A stretch of DNA of 64,000 bases, from the NCBI RefSeq assembly GCF_001659605.2, contig NC_035170.2:20351190-20415189 (forward strand). The letters run 5' to 3'. The notes under the pieces are model-generated. The model did not search any database, was not told the DNA's origin, and worked only from the letters and a program-made list of their open reading frames with translations. Below, piece by piece: positions 231-7,861 of this stretch (position 1 is the first letter of the stretch; the number at the start of each line of letters is the position of its first letter). Both the position numbers and the translations under genes were made by a program. The stretch comes from Manihot esculenta (lineage: Eukaryota > Streptophyta > Magnoliopsida > Malpighiales > Euphorbiaceae).

Positions 231-831
231 TGTAACGACCCGAAAATCGGACCGCTACCGGCGCTAGGATCCAGGTCGACTTAAGGTCGCCGGGACCCGT
301 AGCAAGCCTGCTATCCTCTCTGCATACCTGATAAATCCCATACATGATCAAACATTTGCTGTCAAACCATAAAACTGATACTCTGACCCAAGGCTCAACC
401 TGTGCATGCACTATCTCTGTACTACAGAACCCCTTACTAGAGCTTGCTCCAGACGGGTCAAATTCATACTCTGATAAACCTGGTTTTCACATACTCATCA
501 AAATATGTACATACTCATAAAAACAGACCATGTATACAAAAAGGGATTTATATTACATCTGGGTCAAGCACATGACTATACAAAACCATTACATCTCTGT
601 ACATCCTTACATGTCCACACTATGCTATTACACTTCTCTTACTCTTTCTCTTCCGGTACCCTGCTAGACTCCCCTGCACACTGAACCTGCAAAACTAGGT
701 TAGGGGAGAGGGGTGAGCTATAAAGCCCAGTGAGTAGAAACACTGAAAATAGTTCCTTAATTACATGCTCTCATGAAATGCATCACATTATCTTGAATGG
801 ACATGACCACCAAAACTCCCTCCAGTGTCAG

Positions 832-930
832 TATGCCTGGCCCGGCCAGGTCTTACAACCTCAATATGCCTGGCCCGGCCAGGTCTTACAATATCTGTAT
901 GCCTGGCCCGGCCAGGTCTTACAACATCTC
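832..930. repeat. three 33-bp tandem units with a 15-bp interrupted palindrome
   Basis: Units start at 832, 865 and 898. Each contains CCTGGCCCGGCCAGG (7-bp arms around one base) followed by TCTTACAA. The repeats lie in the R-U5 part of the gypsy A LTR. They would be rich methylation targets and could form small hairpins in RNA; no function is shown. Confidence 0.9.
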
Positions 931-1299
931 TAGGGCTATTGGGGTCGCCTTGGTCCATCCACATCATCATGTTCATCATATTATGCAATGCGCCATCTTC
1001 GTGAAACTAGTGCAATCAACCTACTATATTCATCATGATGCATGAAACGTGATAAAAGCATTTGATTTCTTACACAATAAAAGATTAAGTTGAGTTCTAC
1101 TCACCTCTGGCTAACTCTGGACTGACTCTGAAGCAGTGCTCACTGCTGGTCTCTTTGGTTCCTCTGGTCTGTGCCTGCACAGATGGACTCAAATGAGGGA
1201 CCAACCTAGCTCAAGAACAACTCTATAAAACTCCCCAAAACCCCCCCTTAAACGATCCTCAAACAATCACATAAAGCATGCAAAAGAAGGCTGGACAGG

Positions 1300-1595
1300 G
1301 CACTTTCGGCGGCAGGTTCGGCGGCCGAAAGTCTCGTCCAGAGACGAAACTCAAGCACCTTCGGCGGCCGAACTTAACTTTCGGCAGCCGAACCCTTTCG
1401 GGGGCAAGGTTCGGGGGCTGAAAGGCACTCCAGAGACGAAAGTCCCTAACCTTCGGCAACACCTTCGGCGGCCGAAACCCCGCTCCAGAGCCGAAAGTCC
1501 AAACTTTCGGGGGCAAGCTTAGGCAGCCGAAACCACCTCCTTAGCATGTTCGGCGGCCAAACCTTCCTTCGGCGGCCGAACCTGGATTTGCCATT
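1300..1595. repeat. cluster of TTCGGCGGCCGAA-type palindromes in gypsy A LTR
   Basis: About ten perfect or degenerate copies of TTCGGCGGCCGAA are interspersed with CTCCAGAGACGAAAG-like segments; two more copies lie near 2124 and 2161. The spacing is irregular, so this is a degenerate higher-order repeat, not a simple tandem array. Weakened copies of the motif appear at 35048-35155 in the related solo LTR, which supports the family link. Confidence 0.8.
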
Positions 1596-2096
1596 TAGGC
1601 AGAATCCTACTATTCTCATGCACAACTTCCCCCAACACACTCAAACATGCAACCAACCAAACCACAACTCGCATATACCCATGTACATGCACAAAGGGGT
1701 CCATAACTAACTTAAAACCCCAAACAACAACATCAATACAACACATAAGCATAGTTTTGCACAAAACTCACAGCAACCATACTTACCCTCAACATGCAGC
1801 TCTACCCATAAAAACACCATAAAACCTTTAGAACACATGCTAGAAGCTCAGGATCTACACTTACCTCTGAGAATCCTTGAGGATAGGTAATCCTAACGTG
1901 GAAAGATGGAGAACCAAACTTCCAAAGCTTCCAAACTCTCAAACTTGGTCTTTGAGCTCAAAACTTCAAAACAAACACAAAACTCTTCAAAACCTTGAAA
2001 GATGTAAGGGAAAACATAAAAAGCACATGAGGAAGGAGAGGAAGACACCTATGGCGGCTGATGGATGAAATTTCTATCCATTTCACCGACATGTGG

Positions 2097-2108
2097 CCTT
2101 TTATAGGT
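2097..2108 (-). promoter_or_regulatory. TATA-like box of gypsy A 3' LTR
   Basis: The minus strand reads ACCTATAAAAGG about 250 bp downstream of the LTR start, the usual place for the U3 core promoter. The matching promoter is absent from the aberrant 5' LTR, so this copy could not drive its own genomic RNA from the normal position. Confidence 0.6.
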
Positions 2109-2351
2109 GGCTGGCCAGACCACCTTCGGCGGCCAAACGTGTTTTCGAAACCATGCAAGGTTCGGCGGCCGAACTTGCCATTTCCTTCCTTTGTGTTTTC
2201 CTTTCAAAAATCCATTTGCTTAATACTGAAAACATTAAAACAGATTCACAACACTTAGAAAGCATACCTATTACCCTTCTAGAGAGTTCCGACATCCAAG
2301 ATTCCACCGGACTACAGGAATTCCGATGTCGGACTCAAGCCGGGTATTACA

Positions 2352-2366
2352 TTCTCCCCCCCTTAA
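2352..2366 (-). other. polypurine tract of gypsy A
   Basis: The minus strand reads AAGGGGGGGGAGAA directly before the LTR start TGTAATACCC. This is the expected plus-strand primer site at the 3' LTR boundary and fixes that LTR end. Confidence 0.85.
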
Positions 2367-2430
2367 GAACATTCGTCCCCGAATGTTCCACAAAAATAAT
2401 GAAACACACAAAAAAAGGAGGAAACTAACC

Positions 2431-5400
2431 TTAAAACAGATATGGGTACTGCTGAAGCATAGACTCCCGTGTCTCCCAGGTGCACTCTTCTAGATTGTGG
2501 TGGTTCCAAAGGACTTTCACTATTGGGATTTCCTTGTTCCTCAGTTTCCTGATCTGTGTATCCAGAATCCTCACTGGCTGCTCTACATAGGTAAGATCTC
2601 CAAGGATCTCCACCTCAGGCTCACTGAGAACCTTACTCGGATCTGACACAAATTTTCTTAACATAGAAACATGGAAAACCGGGTGCATCCTTTCCATAGA
2701 AGGAGGTAAATCCAGCTTGTACGACACATTCCCGATCTTCTGCAAGATCTCAAAGGGTCCAATGTACCGTGGAGCTAGCTTACCCTTCTTTCCAAAACGA
2801 ACCACTCCTTTCATCGGAGACACCTTTAGCAATACCATATCACCTTCCTGAAACTCTATCTGCTTTCTGCGGATATCTGCATAGCTTTTCTGTCTACTTT
2901 GAGCAGTCTTGATTCTCTCTCTGATTATGGGCACCACTCTGCTGGTGATCTCAACTAACTCCGGCCCTGCAAGAGCTGCCTCTCCAACTTCTTCCCAGCA
3001 AACAGGTAATCTGCACTTCCTTCCATACAAAGCTTCATAAGGGGCCATCCCTATGCTAGCATGATGGCTGTTGTTGTAGGCAAACTCCACCAAAGGTAGA
3101 TGCTGCTTCCAAGAACCGCCAAAGTCTAACACACACATTCTGAGCATATCCTCTATGGTCTAGATGGTCCTCTCTGACTGTCCATCAGTCTGGGGATGGA
3201 AACCAGTGCTGAAATCCAACCTAGTACCCATAGCACTTTGCAGACTCCGCCAAAATCTGGAGGTGAACTAAGGTCCTCTGTCTGACACTATAGACACTGG
3301 GACTCCATGCAACCTTACTATCTCCTCCAAATACACCTGTGCTAACTTGTCCACAGAGTAGTTGCTCCTAACAGGGATGAAATGAGCAGATTTCGTGAGT
3401 CTGTCCACAATCACCCATATGGAGTCTATCCTGTTGGACGCTGCCGGTAAGCCCACTACAAAATCCATAGCTATGTTCTCCCATTTCCATTCTGGAATCG
3501 GCAGTGGGTTAAGCATTCCAGCCGGCTTCTGATGTTCCAGTTTCACCCTCTGACAAACCTCACAGGCGGACACAAACTGTGCCACTTCCTTCTTCATAGC
3601 TGGCCACCAATACACTCTTTTTAGATCTTGATACATCTTGGTGGCTCCAGGGTGAACATTGTACCTTGCATTATGAGCTTCCCTCATAATGTCTCCTTTC
3701 AGATTACTGTCATCTGGTACACATAGTCGATTCCCATAGTGGAGGATCCCTTTGCTATCAAATCTGAACTCTGCACTGTTGCCTGACTAAACAGTCCTGG
3801 CAATTTTCACTAACTCAGGGTCCTCATGTTGTTTCTGAGCTACCTGCTCCAGAAACACTGGTGTCACTCTCATCTGTGCTATCAACGCACCCGTACCAGA
3901 CACCTCTAGCTGTAGCCCTTCGTCGATGAGCTTGTAAAACTCCATCACCACTGGTCTTCTCTCTGCTGCTATATGGGCCAAACTGCCAAGTGATTTTCGG
4001 CTCAAGGCGTCTGCCACAACATTCGCCTTATCCAGATGGTACTGAATTCTGCAATCATAGTCACTGAGCAGTTCTACCCACCTTCTTTGCCTCATATTTA
4101 GCTCTTTCTGACTCAAGATGTACTGTAAACTCTTATGATCTGTGAAGATCTTGCATTTCACCCCATAGAGGTAATGCCTCCACATCTTGAGTGCAAAAAT
4201 AACTGTTGCCATTTCTAGGTCATGGGTGGGGTAATTCAACTCTTGCTTTTTCAACTGCCTAGAAGCATAAGCAATCACCCTGTCATTCTGCATCAGAACA
4301 CAACCCACTCCCACTCTGGATGCATCACAGAATACTGTGAAGTCCTCATTACTGACAGGCAAAGCTAACACCGATGCTGATGTTAGTCTTCTCTTTAGCT
4401 CCTCAAAGCTCTCTTCACATTGGTCCGTCCACACGAACCTCTGATTCTTCTGCGTCAGTTTGGTCATAGGAGCAGCTATCTTTGAGAAGTCCTGTACGAA
4501 CCGTCTGTAGTAACCTGCCAAACCCAGAAAGCTTTTAATTTCTGTCACTGATGTGGGTCTAGGCCAATTAGCTACAGCTTCGATCTTCTTGGGGTCTACC
4601 TCAATACCTTCTGCTGATACAACATGCCCCAAGAAGGCAATGCTCCTCAACCAAAACTCACTCTTAGAGAACTTGGCATATAAACCATGCTCTCTCAGAG
4701 TTTGCAGCACTATCCTCAGATGCTGGGCATGCTCCTCTACATCTCTGGAGTACACTAAGATATCATCGATGAAGACAATAACAAAGTGATCCAGATACTC
4801 GCTGAAAACTTTGTTCATGAGATCCATGAATGCTGCAGGGGCGTTAGTCAACCTGAACGGCATTACTAAGAACGCATAATGCCCATATCTGGTCCTGAAA
4901 GCTGTCTTTGGCACATCTGCTTCTCTGACTCTCAACTGATGATACCCGGACCTCAGATCTATTTTAGAGAAACAACCGGCTCCAGCTAGCTGGTCAAATA
5001 GATCATCGATCCTAGGCAGGGGATACTTATTCTTGGTAGTGACCTTGTTCAACTGCCTGTAGTCGATACAAAGTCTGAGGGATCCATCCTTCTTTCTGAC
5101 AAACAACACTGGAGCACCCCAAGGTGAGGTAATAGGGCGGATAAAACCCTTGTCTACCAAGTCCTGCAGCTGCTCTTTCAACTCTTTTAACTCTGCTGGC
5201 GCCATCCTGTAGGGAGGAATAGAGATAGGTCTAGTACCAGGCATTAAATCTATTGCAAACTCTATCTCCCTATCAGGTGGTAGTCCTGGAAGCTCGTCTA
5301 GGAAGACGTCTAGAAATTCTCGGACTACTGGAACTGCGGCTGGTTCCCTAACCTGTCTATCTAGCTCTCTCACATGAGCTAGAAACCCCTGACAACCTCT

Positions 5401-7386
5401 CCTAAGCAAACGACGAGCCTGAAGGGCTGAGATCAAACCTCTAAGTGTCCCCCTCTTGTCTCCTCTGAAGACACATTCTGACCCATCCTGGTCTCGAAGA
5501 CTGACTACCTTATCTCTGCAGTCCAAGGTAGCTCCATATGTAGATAGCCAATCCATCCCTAGAATGACATCAAAGTCCGTCAATTCTAGAACCACAAGGT
5601 CAGCTGGTAGGCATCTACCCTCTATGAACACTGGACTGAAGCGACAGACTGACACTGCCACTGATGGGTCACATTTGGGTCCACTGACCCAGAGAGGACA
5701 CTCTAACTCAGAAATCATCAGACCCAATCGCTCTACGGCTCTCGAAGCAATAAAAGAGTGAGAAGCACCGGGGTCCATCAAAGCATACACAATAGAACAC
5801 CCAATGATGAGATTACCTGACACCACTGTGTTCGACGTGTTTGCCTCCTCTTGAGTCACAGTGAAGATCTGTGCTGGGGCTACCGGACCTTCACCTCGGG
5901 AACATGCCGCTGAAGAAGAGGCTGACCCTCTCCCTCTACCTCTACCACTGCTCTGAGGCATGGCTGGAGCTGCTGGCTGTGCCACACTGCCTGAGCTCAT
6001 CTGCTGGGATGGTGCCATAAAGGTCAACTGAGGACACTCCCGAGCAAAATGTCCCTCCTGCCCACACTTAAAGCAGGCTGTAGATCCCATACGACAAACT
6101 CCTTTGTGCGGCCTTCCACATATCATGCACACTGTACTGCCTGTGCTAGAGCTTGAGCCACTACCCATTCCCAGACTAGACTTGATCTTATTCCAGAACT
6201 TGCCCTTCCTACCTTTCAACTTTTCTCCCTTCTTGCTACCAAAAGTTGATGCACTGGGGCTCTTAAAACCCGAAGACTGTGCCCCTTGCTGCTTAACTGT
6301 TCCCTGAATAATGGCACTCGCCTCCATCTTCCTGGCGGCATCCACTATAGAGTGGAAACTCTCTTTCTCTGCTAGAAGAATCAAGGAGGAATACCTGGGA
6401 TGAAGTCGCATAGTATATCTCCTTGCCTTCTTCTGGTCAGTGTCATAAGCCTGACCCACATACTGAAGCAGATCCAGGAACTTGTCTGTGTATTCATCTA
6501 CACTCATCTCCTCGGTCTGCCTCAACTGCTCAAATTCTATAACTTTCATCTCCCTGGAGCTGTCAGGAAAAGCCCACCCTGCAAACTCATTGGCGAACTT
6601 TCCCCATGACATGCTGTCCAACTTGGGGTCCACATAATTCTTGAACCACTCTCGAGCCTTTTTACATTTCAATGTGAACCCTGCCATCTCAATGGCTCTG
6701 CTCTCATCAGCTCCTAACTCATCAGTTATCATCTTAACCGTTCTGAGGTACTCAAATGGATCATCTCCCGTGTTGAACTTGGGAGCATCCAACTTCAGAT
6801 ACTCTGTCATTTTCACTTTACTTCCCTCAGCCAAGCTAGGTTGCGGTACTTGGACAACAAGGACTACTGGTTCTGGTTCTGGTGGTGGCGAAGGTGCTGA
6901 ACTTGACTCTGGTTATGTTGTACTGGGATGAAAAGGTGTAGGTGGATACATGGGATATGGTGGGTAAAAAGGAGGATAAGGCATGTAAGGCATGTAGGTA
7001 GGATATGGGGTAAAGCTAGAGTAATCCGACGTACCCCCCATCGGATACCCTGGGCCCTGTGGAAAGGGTAGATAATGGGGTGGATAACCAAACCCCGAGG
7101 CCTGAGCGCCTCCCTGAGATTCTCCCATACCCTCTTCCGACCTGCCCATACCCATGCTTTCCTCTCTTGATTGATCCACATCCATAGCCTCCCTCACTTC
7201 CTCTGAGCTTCCTCCTCTTTCTACTCCTCTTCTACTCTCGTCAAAAGACCTTCTAGGGTCCCTTGACGTACCCTCCCTGCTTGATCTCGGAGACCTTGCC
7301 CTTGGCAACGCAGGAGGACGAGCATCTGAGCCCTCATTCACTGGTGGGACTCCAGTCAATCGTGCAGATCAACGAGTTCCTCTCAT
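2431..7386 (-). pseudogene. gypsy A gag-pol polyprotein with five premature stops
   Basis: One reading frame of about 1650 codons runs from ATG at 7386 to TAA at 2431. In order I see a proline/charged N-terminal region, a retrotransposon gag domain ([18 protein letters not shown]), a CCHC knuckle ([14 protein letters not shown]), aspartic protease ([11 protein letters not shown]; family usually DSGA), RT ([12 protein letters not shown]), RNase H ([14 protein letters not shown]), integrase zinc finger (HPGATKMYQDL and CEVCQRVK), the catalytic core, and a C-terminal chromodomain (VLWNHHNLEECTWE), which targets integration in chromoviruses. Stops interrupt it near 7372 (TGA), 6911 (TAA), 3787, 3266 and 3160 (TAG); each is one C-to-T change from Arg or Gln. 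No other frameshift is needed. The product would be cut into capsid, enzymes and integrase; this copy cannot make it. Confidence 0.9.
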
Positions 7387-7626
7387 CTTAAATTTCTGAA
7401 AAACACATAACAGCACACATCATCATATAAACAGCACAACGAAACACATGCATAACTCATGACATTACAGCTCAACAACAAGACAGGACGCAACATCCTA
7501 TCCTAGTGGACATGCTTTCCTATTGTGCTTGACCTACTAGAACCTCTATGAGCTCGACACTCTCTCTCTAGGTCTGACCATATGAACCTAGGGCTCACAC
7601 CCCTTCGGTCCAACCATTTGAACCTG

Positions 7627-7640
7627 GGGCTCTGATACCA
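7627..7640 (-). other. tRNA-iMet primer binding site of gypsy A
   Basis: The minus strand reads TGGTATCAGAGCCC three bases after the LTR end at 7644. This matches the plant initiator-tRNA PBS and orients the element. It is intact although the LTR beside it is rearranged. Confidence 0.85.
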
Positions 7641-7643
7641 ATC

Positions 7644-7856
7644 TGTAACGACCCGAAAATCAGACCGCTACCGGCGCTAGGATTCAAGTTGAGCCTTGGG
7701 TCAGAGTATCAGTTTTATGGTTTGACAGCAAATGTTTGATCATGTATGGGATTTATCAGGTATGCAGAGAGGATAGCAGGCTTGCTACAGGTCCCGGCAA
7801 CCTTAAGTCGACCTGGATCCTAGCGCTGGTAGCGGTCCGATTTTTGGGTCGTTACA
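7644..7856 (-). repeat. aberrant fold-back 5' LTR of gypsy A, 213 bp
   Basis: Bases 7688-7856 are an inverted copy of 231-399 (169 bp, 4 mismatches by eye, all transitions at CpG). Bases 7644-7688 are a direct copy of 231-275, the last ~45 bp of the LTR (3 transitions). The two parts meet at CAAGT (7685-7689), where both parental sequences share CAGGT. The unit is thus U5 joined to inverted U5 with U3 and R missing; its own ends form a 45-bp inverted repeat. It is flanked outside by the TSD and inside by the PBS, so it occupies the 5' LTR position. Confidence 0.88.
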
Positions 7857-7861
7857 GCATG

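Follow-up and report, generated by a model that had tools for sequence, protein, structure and literature searches.

A Ty3/Gypsy retrotransposon of Manihot esculenta with an inverted U5 in place of its 5′ long terminal repeat, probably arisen by template switching before integration

How can a retrotransposon that should be flanked by two direct long terminal repeats (LTRs) come to end in U5 (unique 5′) sequence on both sides? This question is raised by a Ty3/Gypsy element that lies in minus-strand orientation in a 64,000-nt stretch of Manihot esculenta DNA (the window; contig NC_035170.2, here C10, 20.35–20.42 Mb), which we compared with 640 Mb of the same genome on 86 contigs. The element occupies positions 231–7856 of the window and, read from 7856, consists of an inverted U5, a direct U5, a spacer, a primer-binding site, an internal region, a polypurine tract and a full LTR. 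Its three U5-derived arms (A, B and C) and the features around them are as follows.

226–230, no strand: target-site duplication (TSD) GCATG on the element's 3′ side, from sequence alignment and a frame test
231–2351, minus strand: complete 3′ LTR of 2,121 bp, of the type designated Y, with its U5 end at 231 and its U3 (unique 3′) end at 2351
231–399, minus strand: arm A, the last 169 bp of U5 of the 3′ LTR
2100–2105, minus strand: TATAAA, a candidate promoter at LTR position 247, putatively in U3
2352–2364, minus strand: polypurine tract AAGGGGGGGAGAA, just past which identity to the subfamily designated X drops
2431–7359, minus strand: gag-pol reading frame with internal stops, from a domain search of pieces taken separately
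7629–7640, minus strand: primer-binding site TGGTATCAGAGC (forward strand GCTCTGATACCA)
7641–7643, minus strand: 3-nt spacer beside the primer-binding site
7644–7688, minus strand: arm C, a normally oriented 45-bp segment of U5 beside the primer-binding site
7684–7688, no strand: fold-back junction, with CAGGT common to both templates and a present reading of CAAGT
7688–7856, plus strand: arm B, the inverted 169 bp of U5 that forms the element's 5′ outer end
7857–7861, no strand: TSD GCATG on the element's 5′ side, from sequence alignment and a frame test

The inverted repeat reported in the initial annotation was recovered with 4 mismatches in 169 bp (231–399 against 7688–7856), as was the direct copy (231–275 against 7644–7688), which is alike at 42 of 45 positions and which BLAST placed at 228–270 against 7641–7683 with 95% identity. 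A word search bore out the further claim that both outer ends read TGTAACGACC (found at 231 and 7644, with its complement at 7847), while the normal U3 end GGGTATTACA occurs a single time in the window, at 2342–2351. The primer-binding site, the polypurine tract and the perfect GCATG duplication were all located in place, and the LTR, previously put at about 2.1 kb, could be set at 2,121 bp. The LTR has a further TATAAA at its position 1800, and the element's 5′ end, devoid of the U3 side as had been claimed, contains neither of the two. The U3 and U5 ends of the LTR have TTACA in common.

Domain searches of the separate pieces matched Retrotrans_gag, zf-CCHC, RVP_2, RVT_1, RT_RNaseH, Integrase_H2C2 and SH3_Tf2-1, so that gag, protease, reverse transcriptase (RT), RNase H and integrase pieces follow each other in Gypsy order. 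The integrase core itself gave no match in the pieces scanned, and the chromodomain that a chromovirus would have at the C end of its integrase was represented by a weak match (PF00385) of 22.7 bits, under the cut-off of 25.1. Because this coding content goes together with the Ty3/Gypsy signals (primer-binding site, polypurine tract and 5-bp TSD), we describe the element as a defective Ty3/Gypsy copy, one in which two direct LTRs are not found and the 5′ side consists of 45 bp of direct and 169 bp of inverted U5. A DNA transposon with terminal inverted repeats was considered and rejected, given the Gypsy pol domains in the pieces scanned and, in the relatives L031, L037 and L040, flanking LTRs that point the same way (the layouts of these and other relatives were compared from matches of more than 150 bp). 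The element is very probably dead, since its 5′ end has no U3 side with TATAAA and its coding frame contains internal stops.

The insertion site was examined by way of the interrupted gene. In the right flank we found coding sequence for gag-pre-integrase, Pol beta-barrel and integrase domains, a layout that we take to be of the Copia type. When the insert and one GCATG are taken out, one frame is open for 708 codons from the window edge, the last codon closing it, whereas all three frames are broken when both GCATG copies are retained. This supports a real 5-bp duplication and a single-step insertion into an open gene, with the empty site itself being a prediction drawn solely from the reading frame.

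The normal state of this LTR is apparent from its relatives. Its three nearest copies are solo LTRs (L002–L004, enlarged as L009–L011) of 2,225, 2,203 and 2,193 bp, which are flanked by the TSDs CAAAC, GTCCA and GTAGC, share 97.0–98.5% identity with the window LTR and have U3 ends reading TGTAATACCC in two cases and TGTAATATCC in L011. Among full-length relatives, E17 (L040) has LTRs of 2,057 and 2,062 bp (48 mismatches, 97.7% alike) and the TSD TTTCT, L031 has paired LTRs that are 97.9% alike over 2,086 aligned bases, with a 3′ LTR of about 2.16 kb, and the two LTRs of L037 are 98.1% alike. With solo LTRs of 2.19–2.23 kb and paired LTRs of 2.06–2.2 kb in two full-length relatives examined, the 5′ end in the window is thus abnormally short. 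Within the window LTR, positions 823–937 comprise three 33-bp tandem units, and overlapping matches in L004 suggest one extra unit there.

The initial annotation had pointed to the possibility of further copies with an inverted LTR end. However, a query spanning the junction was matched in full at the window only, that is by one of the best 40 scored from 1,444 candidates. Moreover, an inverted U5 was seen in 1 of 41 distinct U5 ends linked to a primer-binding site, this being the window copy (met as L005 and L012), which was also the only one of these 41 ends with a direct U5 match ending before position 60. Since the 48 loci fetched for this survey (51 segments) were picked by similarity rather than at random, the survey does not yield a genome-wide rate. 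A second fold-back candidate at C11:19662236–19662509 was rejected, as it proved to be the Y solo LTR with the TSD GTAGC (L004 or L011, C11:19662236–19672150), nested in inverted orientation in the LTR of an older relative and thereby mimicking a fold-back. In L033 (2069–2287; C9, approximately 9823848–9824066), two direct tandem U5 ends, 17 bp apart as judged from the U5 match, precede a single primer-binding site; the gap between them has no primer site, and the arrangement may reflect a nested or partly deleted LTR.

At the fold-back itself, the direct template reads GGATCCAGGTCGAC and the inverted template GCACAGGTTGAGCC, with CAGGT as their overlap. The microhomology described earlier is therefore indeed common to both templates, although the junction now reads CAAGT. 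An overlap of at least 5 bases would be met by chance with a probability of approximately 0.005 (a formula gave 0.0046, and sampling of 231–630 against its own complement gave 0.0058). The 4 differences in 169 bp between arms A and B are all CpG transitions, whereas arm A shows 2, 3 and 3 non-CpG changes against the three other Y LTRs and these LTRs differ by 5–6 among themselves. The absence of any non-CpG difference over 169 bp indicates that arms A and B stem from the same parent. Dating of the insertion from these 4 differences was dropped, because the sites are too few, all CpG and prone to methylation.

The two main parts of the element have different affinities, which lay beyond what could be seen in the initial annotation. 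Compared with the three X elements used here (E17, L031 and L028), the internal region is 92.2–93.3% identical, as against 92.5–94.1% among the X elements themselves. The window LTR, however, reaches only 76.4–77.4% against the X LTRs, which share 88.7–92.0% with each other. The more distant L037 differs from the X elements in both parts (76.8–78.3% in the LTR and 88.4–88.9% in the internal region). LTRs generally drift faster, yet the window couples a distant-looking LTR with a close internal region. In 300-bp bins against E17 and L031, identity was 91% in the bin holding the polypurine tract (2331–2630) and 73 and 72% in the neighboring U3 bin, with 70–88% over the LTR bins as a whole, where E17 and L031 share 89–95% (in bins set along E17's own length). 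The element is thus an X-like internal region joined to a Y LTR, with the step at the polypurine tract.

Of the copies with the longer leader also found in the window, L062 and L063 allowed the whole LTR to be cut out, and it is of X type in both (against the window 77.6 and 78.0%, against X 91–93%). L061 lacks a clean U3 start, and L039 was compared in pieces only. Among the best 40 scored, the three solo LTRs were the only other U5 matches of at least 98%, the next being at most 95%, and L006–L008 showed 83–85% in the 558 bp of the LTR nearest its U5 end. The comparison leaves out the internal piece of L027 (54–58%, badly cut) and the LTR-to-LTR values of L028 and L027, which are a meaningless 100% because a single LTR was entered twice for each. 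The leader beside the primer site (7560–7643) contains an imperfect repeat, GGTCTGACCATATGAACCTAGGGCTC and GGTCCAACCATTTGAACCTGGGGCTC, and among the 40 leader matches listed only five, the window's included, extend as far as query position 493 or 494.

We infer from the anatomy, the single insertion with its exact TSD, the 5-nt homology, the shared parent of arms A and B and the normal LTRs of relatives that the element was probably born faulty, through an RT template switch that yielded a defective complementary DNA (cDNA) before its integration as one piece. In such a sequence of events, the minus strand would pass the primer-binding site and copy 45 nt of U5. At CAGGT it would then switch to a minus-sense strand, which could be strong-stop DNA or else the 5′ end of a minus strand, its own or a sister's, and copy 169 nt out to the U5 terminus, resulting in a linear product with U5 at both ends. 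The polarity of this step would be consistent, as a growing minus strand ending in CAGGT could pair with ACCTG and copy to the 5′ end of the donor. Integrase would finally trim the 3-nt spacer, which is missing beside the TSD, join both CA ends and create the 5-bp duplication. Normal reverse transcription involves displacement, by the advancing minus strand, of the minus-strand LTR segment in front of it (PMC5651808), so that a minus-sense donor may well be at hand at that stage. This route would require one switch, followed by an ordinary run to the end of a strand.

Several observations weigh against this reading. Arm C differs from arm A at 3 of 45 positions (arm B at 4 of 169), two of them non-CpG and one within the shared CAGGT. 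In comparison with arm B, this excess has a Fisher p of 0.16 for all changes and 0.043 for non-CpG changes, with 0.038 for arm C against A and B pooled; it may reflect another or older template, a later origin of arm B, or chance. In consequence, while the switch proposed in the initial annotation stands as the best explanation, its stage and its strong-stop donor do not follow from the data. The claim that integrase had used a U5 end here was likewise weakened: TTACA is common to the U3 and U5 ends, making the outer junction non-diagnostic, so that the outer end could be a U3 remnant and a later rearrangement with two junctions could look alike. Furthermore, a flap of the same strand could serve as donor only by providing 169 nt when no more than 45 nt had been copied, and the element is a single fossil known from the assembly alone.

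The strongest rival, which we nevertheless deem unlikely, is a repair event after integration, in which 169 bp were inverted from the 3′ LTR into a normal 5′ LTR and the rest of the latter was lost. This could have proceeded through a microhomology-driven, replication-type rearrangement entering at CAGGT and leaving at TTACA, in line with the 5-nt homology at both junctions. The greater divergence of arm C from A than of B from A (p values of 0.043, 0.038 and 0.16, as above) would be expected if arm B had been copied later. Such repair, however, requires two switches, the second of which must hit precisely the terminal 5 bp of the LTR and leave not a single U3-specific base, and a template 7.3 kb away in inverted orientation.

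A doubtful but conceivable variant of the pre-integration switch is that one round of RT in a particle with two RNAs produced both the mosaic and the fold-back. The minus strand would start on a Y RNA, yielding the Y LTR, change over at the polypurine tract to an X RNA, copy the X internal region and read through 45 nt into the unused 5′ U5 of the X RNA, before folding onto Y strong-stop DNA and gaining an inverted Y U5. This would give arm C an X origin and arms A and B a Y origin, which fits the excess changes of arm C as well as the base at site 19. This base is A in arm C and in 4 of the 5 X U5 ends read, and G in 5 of 5 Y ends; against this, only 2 of 20 copies (19 taken by primer-binding-site match and L042 from the raw sequence line) fetched from the 40 matches listed by a gag-leader query without that A have an A there. 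Site 19 was not accepted as proof of another parent, being a CpG site for which the X copies came from a query holding A, but it may hint at an X origin of arm C. No published fossil in which the minus strand read through past the primer site is known to us, though the literature was not searched under that term.

Less likely than either of these is a joint insertion, at one site, of U5 ends from two sister cDNAs, with end joining of their inner parts at CAGGT; the second cDNA would have been mostly lost, as would the 5′ LTR of the first. The 5-nt homology at the junction suits such joining, and, in the available text of one study, purified retroviral integrases joined two U5-mimicking ends in concert in vitro (PMC3790719). 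On the other hand, the absence of non-CpG differences between arms A and B implies nearly identical sisters, and both two partners and a large deletion are required.

A fold-back artefact of assembly or sequencing is improbable. Inverted repeats are a known class of artefact, but arm B has four private changes, runs for 169 bp, 124 bp beyond the neighboring 45-bp direct sequence, and stops exactly at the TSD. That a non-autonomous subfamily regularly ends in this short terminus is highly improbable, as no supporting point was found, no second copy appeared among the best 40 of 1,444 candidates, the fold-back was present in 1 of 41 distinct U5 ends linked to a primer-binding site and the three sister solo LTRs measure 2.19–2.23 kb.

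Template switching at the cDNA level, producing odd LTR insertions with intact TSDs, has been published for plants (Triticeae, rice and maize; Sabot and Schulman 2007, PMC1950507). The complexes described there have three direct LTRs, two internal regions and normal ends, whereas the window element has an inverted U5 end, no 5′ U3, one internal region and no third LTR; it resembles them in its flanking TSD, and would also do so in its birth before integration if the proposed switch is right. Asymmetrical LTRs are likewise published for human immunodeficiency virus 1 (HIV-1), where the available text reports them in 26 of 88 proviruses, 24 with partial 3′ LTR deletions and 2 with deletions in the 5′ LTR (<100 nt) (Joseph et al. 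2022, PMC9278108). As in the window, the two LTRs of one provirus differ, which that text ascribes to misalignment and template switching during reverse transcription; in contrast, it describes two proviruses with genomic inversions and mentions no inverted U5 end (PMC9278108).

Other systems are more remote. The in vitro concerted integration mentioned above also shows integrase inserting two like ends but, in the available text, concerns oligonucleotides rather than a genomic insertion and a retroviral rather than a plant Gypsy integrase (PMC3790719). Tandem LTR retrotransposons of plants are similarly single abnormal insertions, to which Gypsy elements are perhaps more prone, but they form direct arrays with shared internal LTRs, and the main text of that paper, as far as available, contains no mention of template switching (PMC11899658). 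Plant solo LTRs, three of which are of the window's LTR type in this genome, differ in keeping both U3 and U5 ends. The matches listed from the open literature of PubMed Central included no LTR element whose 5′ end is an inverted U5, a scope that most subscription journals lie outside. New here is also the mosaic of an X-like internal region and a Y LTR.

A single dead copy leaves the general picture of these elements unchanged. Copies of this kind would tend to be missed by LTR finders, which seek two direct LTRs. Scanning a whole genome for inverted U5 ends would be simple. If the proposed switch is true, the element would document, in nature, a change of strand close to the final step of cDNA synthesis, an error that is normally hidden. 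It would then also testify to the ability of a plant Gypsy integrase to insert DNA that ends in U5 on both sides, and would reveal one way in which copies can lack a 5′ promoter from birth.

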